This document shows positions 21,014 to 26,750 of a stretch of 33,339 nucleotides of DNA, one piece after another. Origin of the DNA: Flavobacteriaceae bacterium (GTDB taxonomy: Bacteria > Bacteroidota > Bacteroidia > Flavobacteriales > Flavobacteriaceae). The stretch spans positions 3,202 through 36,540 of the forward strand of contig NVRM01000014.1 of assembly GCA_002400885.1 (NCBI GenBank). Direction: 5' to 3'. A program made the position numbers and the translations under genes. The notes beneath the pieces were generated by a model, which saw only the letters and a list, made by a program, of their open reading frames with translations, was not told the origin of the DNA and searched no databases. Numbering within the stretch: the stretch's first letter is position 1; every line of letters starts with the position of its first letter.

Positions 21014-21565
21014 ATGATAATAGATTTTAAAAACGAGGTCTGGAAGCCTTACAGGGAGGATTTGTGGAGCGAATTCGAGTTGTTTGAAGTTTCAGATTAC
21101 GGACGCGTAAAGTCGCGAAAAGTAGATCAAGAAGAGTTCGCTTTAGTGAAAACTAATTTGACAGGAGGTTATAAAATGTTCTGGATTGCAAAAAACGGAG
21201 GGAAAAGAACTTCTTGTTATGTACATAGAGCAATTGCCAAAGCTTTTTTGGAAAACCCAGAAGATAAAAAATATGTAACGCACTTGGATTTTGAAAAGAT
21301 TAACAACGAAGCTGCTAATCTAAAATGGTTAACAAGACCCGAAGTTGCACAACATCAGAAAAGTAATCCTTTGGTAATAAAAGCTTCTAAAGTCAGAAAA
21401 TATTCGAAATTAACGGAAGCAAAAGTAAAGTTGATTAAACGAAAAATTAACGACCCGAATAGAAGAACTCGCATGAAGATGATTGCCAAACAATTTGGAA
21501 TTTCTGAAATGCAATTATACCGAATTAAATCAGGTGAAAACTGGGGTAGTGTGACGGAGGATTAG
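21014..21565 (+). CDS. NUMOD4-HNH endonuclease-like protein with C-terminal HTH
   Basis: 183 residues in three parts. A NUMOD4 motif (8-35: EVWKPYREDL, then FEVSDYGRVKS) is followed by an HNH-type core (70-106: VHRAIAKAFLENPEDK, then THLDFEKINNEAANLKWLT) with candidate metal/catalytic residues His71, His90, Asn98 and Asn102. A C-terminal helix-turn-helix (132-178: KLTEAKVKLIKRK, IAKQFGISEMQLYRIKSGENW) completes it. NUMOD4/HNH proteins are known mostly from homing endonucleases and phages; this one stands free, with no intron or intein around it. The residue before His90 is Thr where relatives usually have Asn. It could be an active nicking or homing-type nuclease or a domesticated DNA-binding protein. 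It has a strong promoter and is followed 41 bp later by the zinc-ribbon gene. Confidence 0.87.
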   Translation: MIIDFKNEVWKPYREDLWSEFELFEVSDYGRVKSRKVDQEEFALVKTNLTGGYKMFWIAKNGGKRTSCYVHRAIAKAFLENPEDKKYVTHLDFEKINNEAANLKWLTRPEVAQHQKSNPLVIKASKVRKYSKLTEAKVKLIKRKINDPNRRTRMKMIAKQFGISEMQLYRIKSGENWGSVTED

Positions 21566-21606: not shown

Positions 21607-21963
21607 ATGAAGGATGATGATAAAATTTGCTTAGAGTGTGACAAAACAGTCCATGGTCGGATTGATAAAAAGTTCTGCTCGGATTATTGTAGGAATTCTT
21701 ACAATAATAAGGTGAATCCCGAGAGTAGAAAATTGATTAGAAATACAAATAATAGATTGCGGAAAAACTATAAAGTTTTAACAAAACTCAATCACCTAGG
21801 TAAAACCAAAGTTGGTAAGATTAGCTTACTTGATGCGGGTTTTATTTTTAATTATTTTACATCTGTCTATATTACTAAAACGGGAAATACTTATCATTAT
21901 ATTTATGATCAAGGGTATCTGAAATTAGAAAATGATTATTTTCTCCTAGTAAAAAATAATTAA
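21607..21963 (+). CDS. Small zinc-ribbon protein (DUF2116-like)
   Basis: 118 residues. An N-terminal zinc ribbon (Cys8-x2-Cys11 ... Cys24-x3-Cys28: ICLECDKTVHGRIDKKFCSDYC) is followed by RNSYNNKVNPESRKLIRNTNNRLRKN and a C-terminal half with KISLLDAGFIFNYFTSVYITK and GNTYHYIYDQGYLKLENDYFLLV. I recognise the layout as a recurrent Bacteroidota family of unknown function, probably nucleic-acid binding. Placed 41 bp after the NUMOD4 gene in the same direction, so likely co-transcribed. The stop codon lies within the left arm of the terminator hairpin. Confidence 0.85.
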   Translation: MKDDDKICLECDKTVHGRIDKKFCSDYCRNSYNNKVNPESRKLIRNTNNRLRKNYKVLTKLNHLGKTKVGKISLLDAGFIFNYFTSVYITKTGNTYHYIYDQGYLKLENDYFLLVKNN

Positions 21964-22030
21964 AATTTATAATAAAGATCAAGGGATATCATTGTATGAA
22001 TACTCTTTGTTCTTTATTATAAATTTTAAT
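21959..22030. terminator. Bidirectional terminator with 20-bp perfect arms
   Basis: Arms 21959-21978 and 22011-22030, AT-rich, 32-base loop, filling the whole gap between the convergent zinc-ribbon gene (+) and PepSY gene (-). The left arm includes the zinc-ribbon stop codon. Confidence 0.7.
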
Positions 22031-22034
22031 AAGA

Positions 22035-22829
22035 TTATTCCTCCAACTTTTTTTGCTTTATAACGGATGCTTTCTTAGCCCGTTTGGCCTTGTTACTTCT
22101 TTTTTTATACCACATATAAATCCCTGTAAGGGATAAAACAGAAACAGTCAGTCCTAGAATAAAAATCCAAATACCTTCAAATTTTTTCCCAAAGAAAGCT
22201 TTTCCCGTATGCATGTCCATAATTAATTTATGGAGTTTGATGCTTGTTGTTTTACGAGAACTAGTGCTTGTTGAAATTGGAAATTCTAAGGCTTGAAAAG
22301 AACTGTCCTTACGCCAAGAGATTCCATTGTTATTACTTATAAATAATGTTTTATGGTCAGAGACAATAAGCGTACTATCATTAGGGCTTTCTATTTGATG
22401 TATTTCTCTGTTAAATTTCAATTCCGTTATTTGAGATGAAAGATCCATTTTGAAAAGTCCCTTTTTTGTTCCTATCCAAATACTAGAAGCAACTTTTTTA
22501 ATGCAATGTACTTGGATGCCTTCTATACTAGGAATGCTAATTAAACGGTCTTTTTCTACTTGAAATAGGCCATTTGTAGTTCCTATGTAACGTAGGTTTG
22601 GAGTGAGGCTTAAACTGGCTCTAATACGGTTATTTTTGTCAGATTTTTCACTACTTGAAAGTGCATTGGAATATCCAGGAAGCCAGGATACATTTACAAT
22701 AGGTTCGCTAGAAGTGTCTTTGTAAGTGTTTTCAAAGGTGATTAATAAAGCAGTAATCCCCACGATAAAAGTGGGGATACTTAGGATCAATCCAATCCAG
22801 TTATGATATTGCCTTGTTTTTTTTAACAT
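22035..22829 (-). CDS. PepSY-associated transmembrane-type protein with internal propeller-like segment
   Basis: 264 residues. N-terminal helix (about 9-31: HNWIGLILSIPTFIVGITALL), the His-Trp-Ile-Gly start typical of PepSY-associated TM proteins. C-terminal KLIMDMHTGKAFFGKKFEGIW is followed by a second helix (about 219-240) and a basic cytoplasmic tail. Between them lie about 150 periplasmic residues with propeller-like blades (LRYIGTTNGLFQVEKD, SIWIGTKKGLFKMD), as in two-component-regulator propellers. Proteins with PepSY_TM helices are often encoded with iron or siderophore receptors and may act in ferric reduction or quality control. Here it follows the receptor gene by 8 bp in one operon. 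Shorter than four-helix PepSY_TM reductases, so an accessory role is more likely. Confidence 0.8.
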   Translation of the reverse strand: MLKKTRQYHNWIGLILSIPTFIVGITALLITFENTYKDTSSEPIVNVSWLPGYSNALSSSEKSDKNNRIRASLSLTPNLRYIGTTNGLFQVEKDRLISIPSIEGIQVHCIKKVASSIWIGTKKGLFKMDLSSQITELKFNREIHQIESPNDSTLIVSDHKTLFISNNNGISWRKDSSFQALEFPISTSTSSRKTTSIKLHKLIMDMHTGKAFFGKKFEGIWIFILGLTVSVLSLTGIYMWYKKRSNKAKRAKKASVIKQKKLEE

Positions 22830-22837
22830 TTTGTTAC

Positions 22838-25213
22838 TTAAAACGAATATTTAATTCCTGCCAAGAACACGCGACCTAAGGTGCTTTCGTGTTCGTAGGT
22901 AGTAGATTTATCAGTGAATTTTGTTTTATCATTGGATAAACTATCAAATATATCCGATACACGAAAAACTAAGGAAGCACCATTTCCTAACGATTTTTCT
23001 ATTCCTAAATCAGAAAACCACATGGTTTTTTCTGTTTCTATTTTACTCTTTTTAGGACCTACTGCATTTATCGATATTTGTAACTGCGTATTGTAAGGCA
23101 AGGTGAAATCATTGATGGCTTTTGCAGACCATTTGTATTGATCTTTTAAAGCATCACCTTTGTACTCTCCACTTGTTATTTTTGATTTGAACAGTGAGTA
23201 ACTTGCATTTAATTGCCAAAATTCAAAGGCAGAAATACCGGTCATAAATTCTACACCTTTTGTCCAAGCACGTCCAGTGTTTAAAGGTTTTTCTGTAGTA
23301 ATTCCTTGGGCGTCTTCTGACAATGTTTTTTGAATGACATCGTTAATATCTCTGTAAAAGATATTGGCTCCAATATTAAAGTGCTTAAAGTTTTTTAAAT
23401 AACCAACTTCATAAGCCCATGCTTTTTCTGGCATCAAATCTGGGTTTCCAGTCTTAAAATAGTCAGCTTCTTTTTCTTCTAAATATGGATTTAAATCTTT
23501 AAAACCAGGACGGCGAATACGTCTTCCAAAATTAAAAGTAATGTATTGGGTCTTGTCTATATTTGCCGTAAGAGAAATATTAGGCAATACAATATTATAG
23601 TCCGCTTTTATTTGATTGTTTACGTTTGCTGTTTCAGATCTAAGTTGGGTGAATTCATATCTAATTCCTGCATTAATTCTCAAAAACGAATAGGTAAATT
23701 CATCACTAGCATAGATTGCCTGGGTGGTTTCCTTTAAGGTGAAATTATCCTTACCGTCTGCACCAACAGACCAGCTAAGATCTTTATACTTAAATTTGTT
23801 TTTACGAGCATTAAAATCACTTGTTTCTGAAATTCCTGTATAGCCTAGTTTTAGGTCTTGCGATCCTATTTTAAGACTGTTAAGTCCAACAGACCAAGTG
23901 TAAGTATCACGTTGGTTACGTTCAATTTTATCTTCAACTTTAGGAGTTAAATCTAACCATCTACCGTCTTCACTAACCTTGTGAGTTGTTTTTAGTTCGT
24001 TTTTATCTTGGTTAGATCTCATGTAACTAAAATCGGCAAACAATTGTGCATTGTTTTTTAATGAATGGTTAATCGCAGCCATTACTTGTTGGTAGTCGCT
24101 CGGTTGTTTACGGGTCTTTATTTCTTGGGCACCTTCCTTAAAGCTTTTGTCTGCAGCTGTTTTTTGCATGTCGTTTACTTTGGATCTACCCTCTTGTTGT
24201 GAACCGTAAATATACGTAGCGCTTATTTTTGTTTTTGGAAGTATTAAATAGTCAAATCCTGTTCTAAAGGTTTGGTTTAATGTATGTCTATCTTCTATTT
24301 CCATTTTTCTTTCATGTCCAGAAGTTTTTCCGTCTTTAAAAGAAGTTTTTAGCTTTTCCTCTTCTTTAATCAAGTTTTTTTCTTGATAATCGTAGTTTCC
24401 AAAAATAGTAAATTTCTCTGTTTTGTGTGAGATTCCAAATCCTCCAGCGAGTCCATGGCTATTTCCAACCATTACCTGTACGTTTCCTTTGGTTCCGTAG
24501 GCATGGTTTTCTTTTAAAACAATATTTACAATACCATTGATTCCTTCGGATTGGTATTCTACGCCAGGAACAGATAGTATCTCAATATACTTAATACTAC
24601 TTGCAGGAATTTGATCGATAATAGATTCTCTGTTTTTCCCTCTTAGTCCTGTATCTTTTCCATTAATAAGTACTTTAGTATACGCACTTCCAAGTCCTCT
24701 GTATTTAATATTTCTATTCTGTCCAAGACTTCCGTCCATGGCGATGGAGGGCATGTTTTTTAAAATATCTCCTGCATTTCCTCCTGTTTGAGAGATAAGA
24801 GAGCTTACTTTATATTTTACATAAGTTGGTTTTACAACACTTATATTATTGTTTCCTTGTACTACAACTTCGGAAAGGATGTTTTTTTCTGGCTGTAAGG
24901 TGATGTCTTTAATTTCTATGCGTTCACCATTGTGAATGGTAATAACATCGGATTCAAATGAAATGAGTCCCACATATGAGATCTGCACTAAATAAGTCCC
25001 TGTTTGGATATTATTGAAGTAAAAATACCCTTGATCATCGGACATAGTACCGTGAGTTTTGTTCGTAATTGTGTTTTTTAATACGACTGTTGCGTAGGGT
25101 AAAACTTCTGTATTATTGTCGATTATATTTCCTGTAATTGTACCTGTTTCTGATGCATATAAGTTTGCAAATAAACCTTGAATACACAGTAAAATAAGAA
25201 TTGCCTGTTTCAT
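22838..25213 (-). CDS. TonB-dependent-receptor-like outer-membrane protein with carboxypeptidase-regulatory N-domain
   Basis: 791 residues: signal peptide (MKQAILILLCIQGLFANLYAS), then a carboxypeptidase-regulatory-like domain (about 22-110: GTITGNIIDNNTEVLPYATVVL, YLVQISYVGL). A plug domain follows (about 125-235: GDILKNMPSIAMDG, KVLINGK, IEILSVPGVEYQSEGINGIVNIVL), then a beta-barrel of the outer-membrane beta-barrel family 3 type ending GIKYSF. Such proteins import iron chelates, metals or other nutrients using TonB energy. The ligand is not evident. Context (PepSY-type gene downstream, hemerythrin and LuxR regulator upstream) points to iron or redox. It has its own promoter with an overlapping palindrome. 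Confidence 0.92.
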   Translation of the reverse strand: MKQAILILLCIQGLFANLYASETGTITGNIIDNNTEVLPYATVVLKNTITNKTHGTMSDDQGYFYFNNIQTGTYLVQISYVGLISFESDVITIHNGERIEIKDITLQPEKNILSEVVVQGNNNISVVKPTYVKYKVSSLISQTGGNAGDILKNMPSIAMDGSLGQNRNIKYRGLGSAYTKVLINGKDTGLRGKNRESIIDQIPASSIKYIEILSVPGVEYQSEGINGIVNIVLKENHAYGTKGNVQVMVGNSHGLAGGFGISHKTEKFTIFGNYDYQEKNLIKEEEKLKTSFKDGKTSGHERKMEIEDRHTLNQTFRTGFDYLILPKTKISATYIYGSQQEGRSKVNDMQKTAADKSFKEGAQEIKTRKQPSDYQQVMAAINHSLKNNAQLFADFSYMRSNQDKNELKTTHKVSEDGRWLDLTPKVEDKIERNQRDTYTWSVGLNSLKIGSQDLKLGYTGISETSDFNARKNKFKYKDLSWSVGADGKDNFTLKETTQAIYASDEFTYSFLRINAGIRYEFTQLRSETANVNNQIKADYNIVLPNISLTANIDKTQYITFNFGRRIRRPGFKDLNPYLEEKEADYFKTGNPDLMPEKAWAYEVGYLKNFKHFNIGANIFYRDINDVIQKTLSEDAQGITTEKPLNTGRAWTKGVEFMTGISAFEFWQLNASYSLFKSKITSGEYKGDALKDQYKWSAKAINDFTLPYNTQLQISINAVGPKKSKIETEKTMWFSDLGIEKSLGNGASLVFRVSDIFDSLSNDKTKFTDKSTTYEHESTLGRVFLAGIKYSF

Positions 25214-25247
25214 GATGTCCTCTTAAATTTTGAGATTAAACAAGCTG

Positions 25248-25278
25248 CAAAAATAAAGTCAAAACATAGAGTTTACAA
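25248..25278 (-). promoter_or_regulatory. Promoter of the receptor/PepSY operon
   Basis: Minus strand: TTG (25276-25278), 20-base spacer, TATTTTTG (25248-25255) followed by CA. The -7 element is 34 bases before the receptor ATG. Confidence 0.6.
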
Positions 25279-25295
25279 TCCCTTTATATAGGGAT
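25278..25295. promoter_or_regulatory. Palindrome ATCCCT-N6-AGGGAT over the receptor promoter
   Basis: ATCCCT (25278-25283) and AGGGAT (25290-25295) flank six bases and touch the -33 TTG. A third AGGGAT is at 25321-25326. Position suggests an operator; the binding protein is unknown. Confidence 0.4.
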
Positions 25296-25328
25296 ATTGC
25301 AGAGGCTATTAATTATAAGTAGGGATGC

Positions 25329-25919
25329 TTAAGAGTCTAATTGAATTATTTTTTTTGTGATCGCGTAAATAGTCAGTCCTGGGAGACTTTTAATCCCTGT
25401 TTTTTCTGTAATATTTTTTCGGTGACTTATCACCGTGTGGATACTAATAGAAAGTGTATTTGCTATTTCTTTATTAGAGAGCCCGTCTATTAAATGGATT
25501 AAAATATCCGTTTCCCGTTCGGTTAGAGTAGCCTGCTGATTACTGGAGTCTATTTTCTGATGTTGCGATATTTTAATAAGTTTCGAAATAATATTTTTTG
25601 CAGTCTCCGTTATCGTTATTTGTTCGTCAAATTTACGAAGTATATCTTGGTCAAAATAAGAGTAAACAAGTGCCATCCATCGGGTAGAAGGATAGGTGTT
25701 TTTTATTTTTATAAAGTCCTTATTCCTGTTTTGTAAAAGAGAGGGGTTTAATATAACCACGGTGTTTTGCTCTTTTTTAATAATGGTATCTAAGTATTTT
25801 AAATCAGAATATTGACTAATAGAAAAACGATGGTTAGATTTTAAAAGAATATGTGAGAGTCCTTCCGAAACGATATGGGAGGGTTCTAAAAGTAGTATAT
25901 GTATTCGCTGCCTATCCAT
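25329..25919 (-). CDS. LuxR-family regulator with degenerate receiver domain
   Basis: 196 residues. N-terminal half resembles a receiver (HILLLEPSHIVSEGL, then VVILNPSLL), but the phospho-acceptor position is Asn58 instead of Asp and only one acidic residue (Glu12) remains in the usual pair. Ordinary aspartyl phosphorylation is therefore unlikely. The C-terminal half is a complete LuxR/GerE HTH (about 130-190: LTERETDILIHLIDGLSNKEIANTLSISIHTVISHRKNI). It overlaps the hemerythrin gene by 8 bp, so the two are translationally coupled. No histidine kinase is nearby. It may respond directly or through the hemerythrin protein to O2, NO or iron. This is inference. Confidence 0.88.
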   Translation of the reverse strand: MDRQRIHILLLEPSHIVSEGLSHILLKSNHRFSISQYSDLKYLDTIIKKEQNTVVILNPSLLQNRNKDFIKIKNTYPSTRWMALVYSYFDQDILRKFDEQITITETAKNIISKLIKISQHQKIDSSNQQATLTERETDILIHLIDGLSNKEIANTLSISIHTVISHRKNITEKTGIKSLPGLTIYAITKKIIQLDS

Positions 25920-26622
25920 TAGAATGCTCCTTTTCTATGTTTTCAATTAAAGGAAGTAATATTTTTTCTTCTATACTGGAGTGAATCCCTAAATCATATT
26001 CTAATTCAAATAAGGTATGTAGAAATTTACGCCTCGTAGTGTGTTCGTTTTTTATAACGATATGTTTGAGTAATAAATTCTTTAAATCCGATAGTTTCAC
26101 TTCGATGTCCGAATGATGCTCTCTGTATCCTTTTACCGAGAAATCGGAATCAGTGTCTTGGGTATTGTCTAATAATTGAGTAAAGTAAGGGAACACAATT
26201 TTATCTTCATATTCCATATGTTCTACAACTTCGTTAAAATAATCGGTAAAAAAACGTTCTATTAGTGCAATGTCATTGGATGTATTATGCTCGCGAAGAA
26301 TACTGATATAATTTAAAATTTTCGGATACACTTCGTTTTTATAATACAAGTGACTGTTTCTTAAAAAAAGAATGATTAATTGAATGTCTTTTAAGGAGTG
26401 TATTTCTTCTTTGTTTGGGAATAAGCCATTGTACAAATTTCCTAAAACAATAAATACGTTTACATCGATGTTATTTTCTTCACAGACTTGTTTCACGGTT
26501 TTATCGTAGACCAAAAAATCAATATTTAAATGTTCTAGAAATAAAAGTAAGTGATAATTTTCGTTGATGAGTTCTGCAACTTCTGTCGCCGGACTTATAT
26601 ATGTTTTACGTACTAGGTACAT
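25912..26622 (-). CDS. Hemerythrin-domain protein, YtfE/ScdA (RIC)-like
   Basis: 236 residues. The C-terminal two-thirds has the di-iron ligand pattern of YtfE-type repair proteins: His91, His135 with Glu139 (HMEYE), His169 or His170, and His214 with Glu218 (HSSIE). Spacings are nearly those of E. coli YtfE (84, 129/133, 160, 204/208, from memory). The N-terminal 65 residues align with the ScdA/DUF542 helper domain, but its Cys-Cys-Gly-Gly motif is replaced (DFLVYDKT, about 35-42). Family members release NO or iron and repair Fe-S centres damaged by nitrosative or oxidative stress. Coupled with the LuxR gene by an 8-bp overlap; has its own promoter. Confidence 0.88.
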   Translation of the reverse strand: MYLVRKTYISPATEVAELINENYHLLLFLEHLNIDFLVYDKTVKQVCEENNIDVNVFIVLGNLYNGLFPNKEEIHSLKDIQLIILFLRNSHLYYKNEVYPKILNYISILREHNTSNDIALIERFFTDYFNEVVEHMEYEDKIVFPYFTQLLDNTQDTDSDFSVKGYREHHSDIEVKLSDLKNLLLKHIVIKNEHTTRRKFLHTLFELEYDLGIHSSIEEKILLPLIENIEKEHSNG

Positions 26623-26638
26623 GGTAGTATGTTTTAGG

Positions 26639-26674
26639 CAAAAATACGTATAAGCTTTCTAATTGACATCAATT
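26639..26674 (-). promoter_or_regulatory. Promoter and palindrome upstream of the hemerythrin gene
   Basis: Minus-strand TATTTTTG (26639-26646), 16 bases before the ATG, with TTG (26670-26672) 23 bases further up. The -33 area lies in the 14-bp palindrome AATTGA-CA-TCAATT (26661-26674), a candidate operator. Confidence 0.45.
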
Positions 26675-26711
26675 TTATCAGTTATTGGTGGTGCTTCTCG
26701 TTTATAAATGT

Positions 26712-26750
26712 GTAAAAAAAAAGGCGAAACTTATAAGTTTCGCCTTTAAT
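26712..26750 (-). terminator. Terminator of the aldehyde dehydrogenase gene
   Basis: Arms AAAGGCGAAACTT (26720-26732) / AAGTTTCGCCTTT (26735-26747). On the minus strand a run of nine T follows the stem. It sits 22 bases after the stop codon. Confidence 0.88.

Follow-up and report, generated by a model that had tools for sequence, protein, structure and literature searches.

A hemerythrin–LuxR gene pair in a flavobacterium as a probable CdhR-type iron-limitation switch for the adjacent TonB receptor operon

Does a hemerythrin-like protein encoded beside a LuxR-type regulator govern the TonB-dependent receptor operon that follows it in a Flavobacteriaceae genome and, if so, in response to which signal? 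The question is raised by four minus-strand genes, here termed HEM, LUX, TBDR, and PEP in that order (Table 1), within a 33,339-nucleotide stretch of contig NVRM01000014.1, hereafter the window. The original prediction had read them as a hemerythrin–LuxR pair, coupled by an 8-bp overlap, that senses iron, O2, or NO and controls an operon for the receptor and a PepSY-type membrane protein. The gene layout was confirmed, with all four open reading frames (ORFs) at the coordinates first noted, the 8-bp HEM/LUX overlap in place, and Pfam in agreement with all four domain types, including Plug, CarboxypepD_reg, and OMP_b-brl_3 (6e-58) matches in TBDR. The gap between LUX and TBDR measures 115 bp, and PEP follows TBDR after 8 nt. 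The HEM-LUX-TBDR-PEP order is kept in a congener (genome G003, locus L041), with identities of 87%, 75%, 84%, and 69%, respectively; the window genome and G003 are only 75% to 80% complete. A terminator-like hairpin is predicted to isolate HEM-LUX from the upstream aldehyde dehydrogenase gene. At the other end of the locus, an inverted repeat seen by eye (AAAATTTATAATAAAGA / TCTTTATTATAAATTTT, 21961–22029) lies between PEP and a convergent small ORF (21607–21963) and is probably a bidirectional terminator. This treble-clef-like ORF comes after another (21014–21565) with NUMOD4, HNH_3, and resolvase-HTH similarity, resembling a homing endonuclease relative, and both are conserved in G003.

Table 1. 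Coordinates of the genes and predicted regulatory elements of the locus, and of the second hemerythrin–LuxR pairs
Feature	Position	Strand	Remarks
HEM, di-iron hemerythrin-like protein, proposed iron sensor	25912..26622	-	236 aa; PF01814, 3.6e-9
LUX, putative NarL/VraR-type activator with predicted pseudo-receiver	25329..25919	-	196 aa; GerE, 3.6e-15
TBDR, TonB-dependent receptor	22838..25213	-	791 aa; CarboxypepD_reg, Plug, OMP_b-brl_3 barrel
PEP, two-helix PepSY_TM-type membrane protein with propeller-like insert	22035..22829	-	264 aa; PF03929, 8.5e-11
Predicted LUX operator TATCCCTATATAAAGGGATT	25277..25296	-	core ATCCCT-N6-AGGGAT at 25278-25295
Upstream half-site ATCCCTA	25320..25326	-	31 bp from the palindrome; direct repeat in the window genome and G003
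-7 element TATTTTTG of the receptor operon	25248..25255	-	spacing from palindrome to TTTG, exactly 25 nt
-7-like element TATTTTTG of the HEM-LUX unit	26639..26646	-	read from sequence; no operator ahead
Terminator-like hairpin	26720..26747		perfect palindromic stem, then T run
Second HEM-LUX pair, window's own genome (L002, L043)	G000:C87:3962-4630		contig stops short of the porin/imelysin block
Second HEM-LUX pair, G003 (L004, L042)	G003:C73		heads porin, imelysin, di-haem oxidoreductase, RidA, porin block

The description of HEM as a YtfE-like di-iron protein proved apt for fold and ligands, but not for family membership. The six YtfE-type ligands (H91, H135, E139, H170, H214, and E218) are present on a four-helix bundle, are invariant in 17 diverse homologues, and remain intact in 78 of 81 homologues; YtfE and ScdA provide the only meaningful profile matches in the PDB, as well as the structural matches of the predicted model (pLDDT 83.8). 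By contrast, the NCBIfam RIC model gives HEM 44.3 bits against a cut-off of 204.7, and the N-terminal CC motif is absent from the window protein and from 16 homologues in the alignment, so that HEM was rejected as a RIC/YtfE/ScdA repair protein. Two of the three exceptions to ligand conservation come from a paralogous type of pair with a degenerate hemerythrin (L059, 9100–10387; L060, 9702–10990); the ligands are lost there, yet the receptor downstream of the L060 pair has a well-phased operator (see below).

LUX matches VraR over its full length, with Asn58 aligned to the VraR phosphoacceptor Asp. Across the pairs, this position is occupied by Asn in 61 of 62 cases and by Ser in the remaining one, never by Asp, and the receiver is thus predicted to be a pseudo-receiver that can no longer be phosphorylated. 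With the phosphoacceptor replaced, LUX was rejected as a phosphorylated two-component response regulator; no histidine kinase gene was found beside LUX-type genes in the neighbourhoods inspected. Nine of the 81 HEM genes are fused to a helix-turn-helix (HTH) domain, and in four fusions (L054, L055, L057, and L058) the hemerythrin domain passes nearly straight into the HTH, the receiver being absent. These receiver-less fusions point to the hemerythrin, rather than a kinase, as the input and are the best evidence that HEM likely supplies the signal to LUX; in the separate proteins, HEM would do so by contacting LUX.

Among 249 Flavobacteriaceae genomes, the window HEM type was confined to the window genus; the remaining four matches of the search are RIC-type genes, and the expectation that the pair would accompany this receptor across the family was therefore not borne out. 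When 395 Bacteroidia genomes were sampled, the best matches included at least 14 further genomes with HEM beside a LuxR gene or fused with one. The receptor linkage is restricted to the window genus, and in other families the homologous pairs are associated with other iron genes. Both the window genome and G003 carry a second pair, its HEM being approximately 40% identical; the G003 copy is directly followed by a block of porin, imelysin, di-haem oxidoreductase, RidA, and porin genes. Porin/imelysin-type blocks also surround the pair in L047 and lie next to fusions or pairs in L055, L058, L084, L090, and L132, flavodoxin genes lie beside pairs in L049, L050, L080, L082, L083, L084, and L088, FeoAB is encoded directly downstream of the pair in L045, and a TonB receptor gene lies downstream of the degenerate pair in L060. 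One further locus (L046, 9753–11078) has the reversed order, LuxR preceding hemerythrin, and its surroundings showed no iron gene linked to an operator.

Published counterparts of the pair are PG1236-PG1237 (CdhR) of Porphyromonas gingivalis, BT0519-BT0520 of Bacteroides thetaiotaomicron, and the fused PIN17_RS10465 of Prevotella intermedia (PMC10434189). Iron depletion upregulates PG1236-CdhR approximately 7-fold and BT0519-0520 16- to 20-fold (PMC10434189), and CdhR has been reported as an activator of hmuYR (PMC3832793; PMC10101095). The B. thetaiotaomicron genes that match the pair neighbours are among the most iron-regulated, with 37- to 598-fold changes for the flavodoxin region and 69- to 324-fold changes for BT2473-2482, which encode CcsA, a porin, a thiol oxidoreductase, and a peptidase M75 (PMC10434189). 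The same study describes iron-starvation switching in Bacteroidetes as poorly understood and the action of CdhR as unclear (PMC10434189). The basis for assignment to the CdhR type is the published description together with close relatives in Bacteroides that have the BT0515-0520 neighbourhood. Like those systems, the window pair combines a hemerythrin gene adjacent to a LuxR-type regulator gene on one strand with a link to iron or heme acquisition, namely TBDR-PEP downstream and an operator common to hmuY, flavodoxin, and imelysin operons. From its sequence and surroundings, we take it to be a flavobacterial member of this known but mechanistically unexplained class of Bacteroidetes regulators.

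Alignment of the receptor promoters of the window and G003 revealed a conserved ATCCCT-N6-AGGGAT element, the exact core of which occurs once per genome in both; similar elements are found in other pair-linked promoters. With one mismatch allowed, the pattern showed no excess over control in four congeners, and only the exact site is specific. Motif discovery drew on 100 non-redundant Bacteroidales regions preceding HEM, porin, and flavodoxin genes and excluded the window genus. It returned a 20-bp palindrome, AATACCTATTAATAGGTATT, of 20 bits with a log-likelihood gain of 720; shuffled regions gained 42 to 52, and those of other genes 82. The search is seed-dependent, because a rerun with fewer seeds reached only 377, at an off-register, weaker optimum, although both optima are several-fold above the controls. 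Scores of at least 10 bits were obtained for 84% to 91% of the HEM, porin, and flavodoxin regions and for none of 17 DUF2023 regions; a matrix built from hemerythrin promoters alone, off register, reached the same level in 9/18 porin, 7/18 flavodoxin, and 1/100 other promoters. Many of the raw background matches of the 20-bp palindrome are divergent genes sharing the hemerythrin promoter, and a 25-bit site inside a coding ORF (G000:C5:38170) was excluded from the counts. The receptor promoters of the window (20.3 bits, with 0 of 1,000 shuffles scoring as well), G003 (20.4 bits), and L060 (19.7 bits) all lie outside the training set. The predicted operator is conserved in G003. Of the two regions originally proposed for LuxR footprinting, 25240–25330 contains this operator, whereas sequence scoring found no recognisable site in 26630–26680. 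In the literature searched, which covers a minority of subscription journals, no account of the operator was found.

In 61 of 75 site-bearing regions, TTTG follows the palindrome by exactly 25 nt (HEM, 42/45; porin, 8/12; flavodoxin, 8/15; receptor, 3/3, including the window), and in 22 of 29 occurrences the TAnnTTTG -7 element starts at a single fixed distance past it (0.26 expected, for a broader range). This fixed spacing to the -7 element would place the operator near -42, overlapping the -33 region, which in the Bacteroidetes promoter layout is the place of a class-II activator. The palindrome can be read as a NarL-type 7-2-7 site, TACCTAT-NN-ATAGGTA, the consensus NarL heptamer being TACYYMT, and its half-sites are consistent with the DNA-binding domain of LUX. 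We infer that LUX binds the box in the receptor promoter.

In four Bacteroides genomes, the combination of half-site, spacing, and -7 element gave 24 matches, compared to 2 control matches. Behind these boxes lie a flavodoxin gene in each of the four genomes, the porin/imelysin operon, genes for TonB receptors, for calycin-like lipoproteins, for enolase, and for an AraC regulator, and a small number of others, and the promoter of the Bacteroides pairs themselves also carries the box. In B. fragilis and B. faecis, each of the four HmuY genes detected belongs to a same-strand operon headed by a box; one of these operons (B. fragilis, L232) comprises the box, a TBDR, HmuY, and a PepSY protein with a long insert. 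Promoters of the glycolytic enzyme enolase with an operator at the fixed spacing recur in several Bacteroides genomes (L176, L191, L198, L210, and L212), and a site was likewise noted for a pyruvate formate-lyase-like gene (L187).

The label of PepSY-type membrane protein holds for PEP insofar as it matches PepSY_TM, but the match is split by a long insert and only two transmembrane helices are kept, with the propeller-like insert between them. The insert matches the propellers of two-component sensors (3va6/3ott) and the C-terminus matches FoxB (7abw); the single-sequence model is confident only for the two helices, and histidines remain near both ends of the protein. PEP was rejected as a FoxB/PiuB-type PepSY_TM siderophore reductase, as it has this two-helix build in place of several PepSY-bearing transmembrane helices. 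A search of 390 Bacteroidia genomes matched almost exclusively the propellers of unrelated sensors, and the distant B. fragilis homologue, the PepSY_TM protein of the box-TBDR-HmuY operon (22% identity over 267 columns), surfaced only via the HmuY operons. Judging from these comparisons, the build of PEP appears nearly private to the window genus, with a distant, longer relative in B. fragilis, and the window TBDR-PEP operon looks like a reduced form of the B. fragilis box-TBDR-HmuY-PepSY arrangement.

Collectively, we consider it probable that HEM and LUX constitute a CdhR-type iron-limitation switch that activates TBDR-PEP through the palindrome at 25277–25296. HEM would hold a di-iron centre and report iron status to LUX, a NarL-family activator with a non-phosphorylatable receiver. 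When iron is scarce, HEM would lose its iron, and LUX would be freed or activated; a LUX dimer would then bind the palindrome, perhaps aided by the upstream half-site, and, overlapping the -33 region, recruit RNA polymerase to the receptor promoter, such that TBDR and PEP would be produced to take up iron or heme. The direction of this response is taken from the homologues, which are published as induced by iron depletion. Control of the receptor operon by the pair, with iron as the theme, is accordingly the part of the original prediction that is most likely correct, given the operator at fixed spacing, the iron-gene neighbours, and the iron-depletion induction of homologues (PMC10434189). 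Some observations fit this switch less well. The hemerythrin promoter of the window genus is without an operator (best score, -0.2 bits), and half-site scans found no genome-wide excess of the half-site/spacing/-7 pattern in that genus, so that its regulon may be small; its HmuY-like loci have no phased box. The porin promoter that would be the target of the second G003 pair, also outside the training set, scores only 8.5 bits (31 of 1,000 shuffles as good), and no obvious iron gene lies within 10 kb of the pairs in L046, L048, L051, L052, L053, L056, and L057. Furthermore, the pair with the ligand-less hemerythrin (L059, L060) still has a receptor promoter with the box, and PG1237 is termed a repressor in one paper (PMC2671838).

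That HEM itself senses iron is our inference, and the main rival for the signal is a redox or O2 input, whereby HEM would respond to O2, to peroxide, or to the redox state of the di-iron site and LUX would tie redox, instead of iron supply, to receptor expression. Hemerythrin-like centres of BTS/BTSL2 do react with O2 and H2O2 (PMC12022348), and cdhR and the hmu operon of P. gingivalis are reported to be lower under microaerophilic conditions (PMC10101095). However, the linked genes and box-bearing operons serve iron or heme uptake or encode flavodoxin rather than oxidative-stress functions, and homologous pairs are induced by iron depletion (PMC10434189), which makes redox sensing unlikely as the primary input, even though the two signals may be inseparable in such a centre.

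Slightly less likely again is that the palindrome belongs to another regulator and that HEM-LUX is merely its iron-regulated target or neighbour; as regards the operator, this is the leading alternative, since only association connects the box with the pair. Strong sites do occur in genomes in which no pair was detected (G313, G357, G411, G412, and G488), and the box at the pair's own promoter in Bacteroides is what would be expected of a target. Against this, the 7-2-7 form of the palindrome suits the LUX DNA-binding domain and is unlike a Fur box. The degenerate palindrome used in the class-wide scan was too permissive for counts to be read by themselves, but among the matches listed 13 of 19 in pair-bearing genomes are strong sites compared to 5 of 85 in others, kinship being ignored. 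In addition, hmuY operons carry the box, and CdhR is the reported hmuYR activator (PMC3832793; PMC10101095). Finally, that HEM is a YtfE/ScdA-like repair or NO-response protein with an NO-responsive LuxR gene, in line with the NO branch of the original prediction, is most improbable despite the common fold and ligands, considering the RIC score and missing CC motif, the true RIC genes of the family, which have a DFCC motif, adjoin respiratory or Rrf2-like genes, and have no LuxR partner, and the lack of any linked NO gene in the pair neighbourhoods inspected.

Beyond this locus, we are inclined to view hemerythrin-gated pseudo-response regulators as a widespread iron-starvation activator of Bacteroidales, present also in a flavobacterium and acting alongside or instead of Fur-type control. 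Di-iron occupancy, not phosphorylation, would gate a NarL-type activator on AATACCTA-N4-TAGGTATT, at a fixed class-II-like position before hmu, receptor, imelysin, and flavodoxin operons. The candidate operator with its fixed spacing, together with the pseudo-receiver and the receiver-less fusions, makes the CdhR-type mechanism directly testable and, if the mechanism is true, a bacterial hemerythrin would act as a transcriptional iron sensor, analogous to the eukaryotic FBXL5 and BRUTUS.

Comparison with known systems delineates what is particular to the window. FBXL5 and plant BRUTUS use a hemerythrin domain with a labile di-iron centre to report iron (PMC12022348), but the likeness is by analogy only, as these eukaryotic ubiquitin ligases have no DNA-binding partner and are not homologous to the window pair as systems. 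HEM shares the fold and the six di-iron ligands with YtfE and ScdA, whereas it lacks the CC motif, falls far under the RIC cut-off, and is partnered with a DNA-binding protein. LUX resembles NarL/VraR-type response regulators in its receiver-like N-domain, GerE HTH, and 7-2-7-like operator, but has neither the phosphoacceptor Asp nor an adjacent kinase gene in view, its input probably coming from the hemerythrin. The B. fragilis L232 TBDR-HmuY-PepSY operon, headed by the box, and the strongly iron-regulated xusABC of B. thetaiotaomicron likewise combine a TonB receptor with a PepSY-type membrane protein, whereas the window operon lacks HmuY and DUF4374 genes and encodes a PepSY protein shortened to two helices. 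The closest counterparts, PG1236-CdhR, BT0519-0520, and the P. intermedia fusion, have a hemerythrin followed by a LuxR-type regulator in one operon, or fused to it, and are linked to heme and iron uptake genes; the window pair differs in that its own promoter is without a box, its box is of the ATCCCT variety, and it adjoins and probably controls the TBDR-PEP operon.
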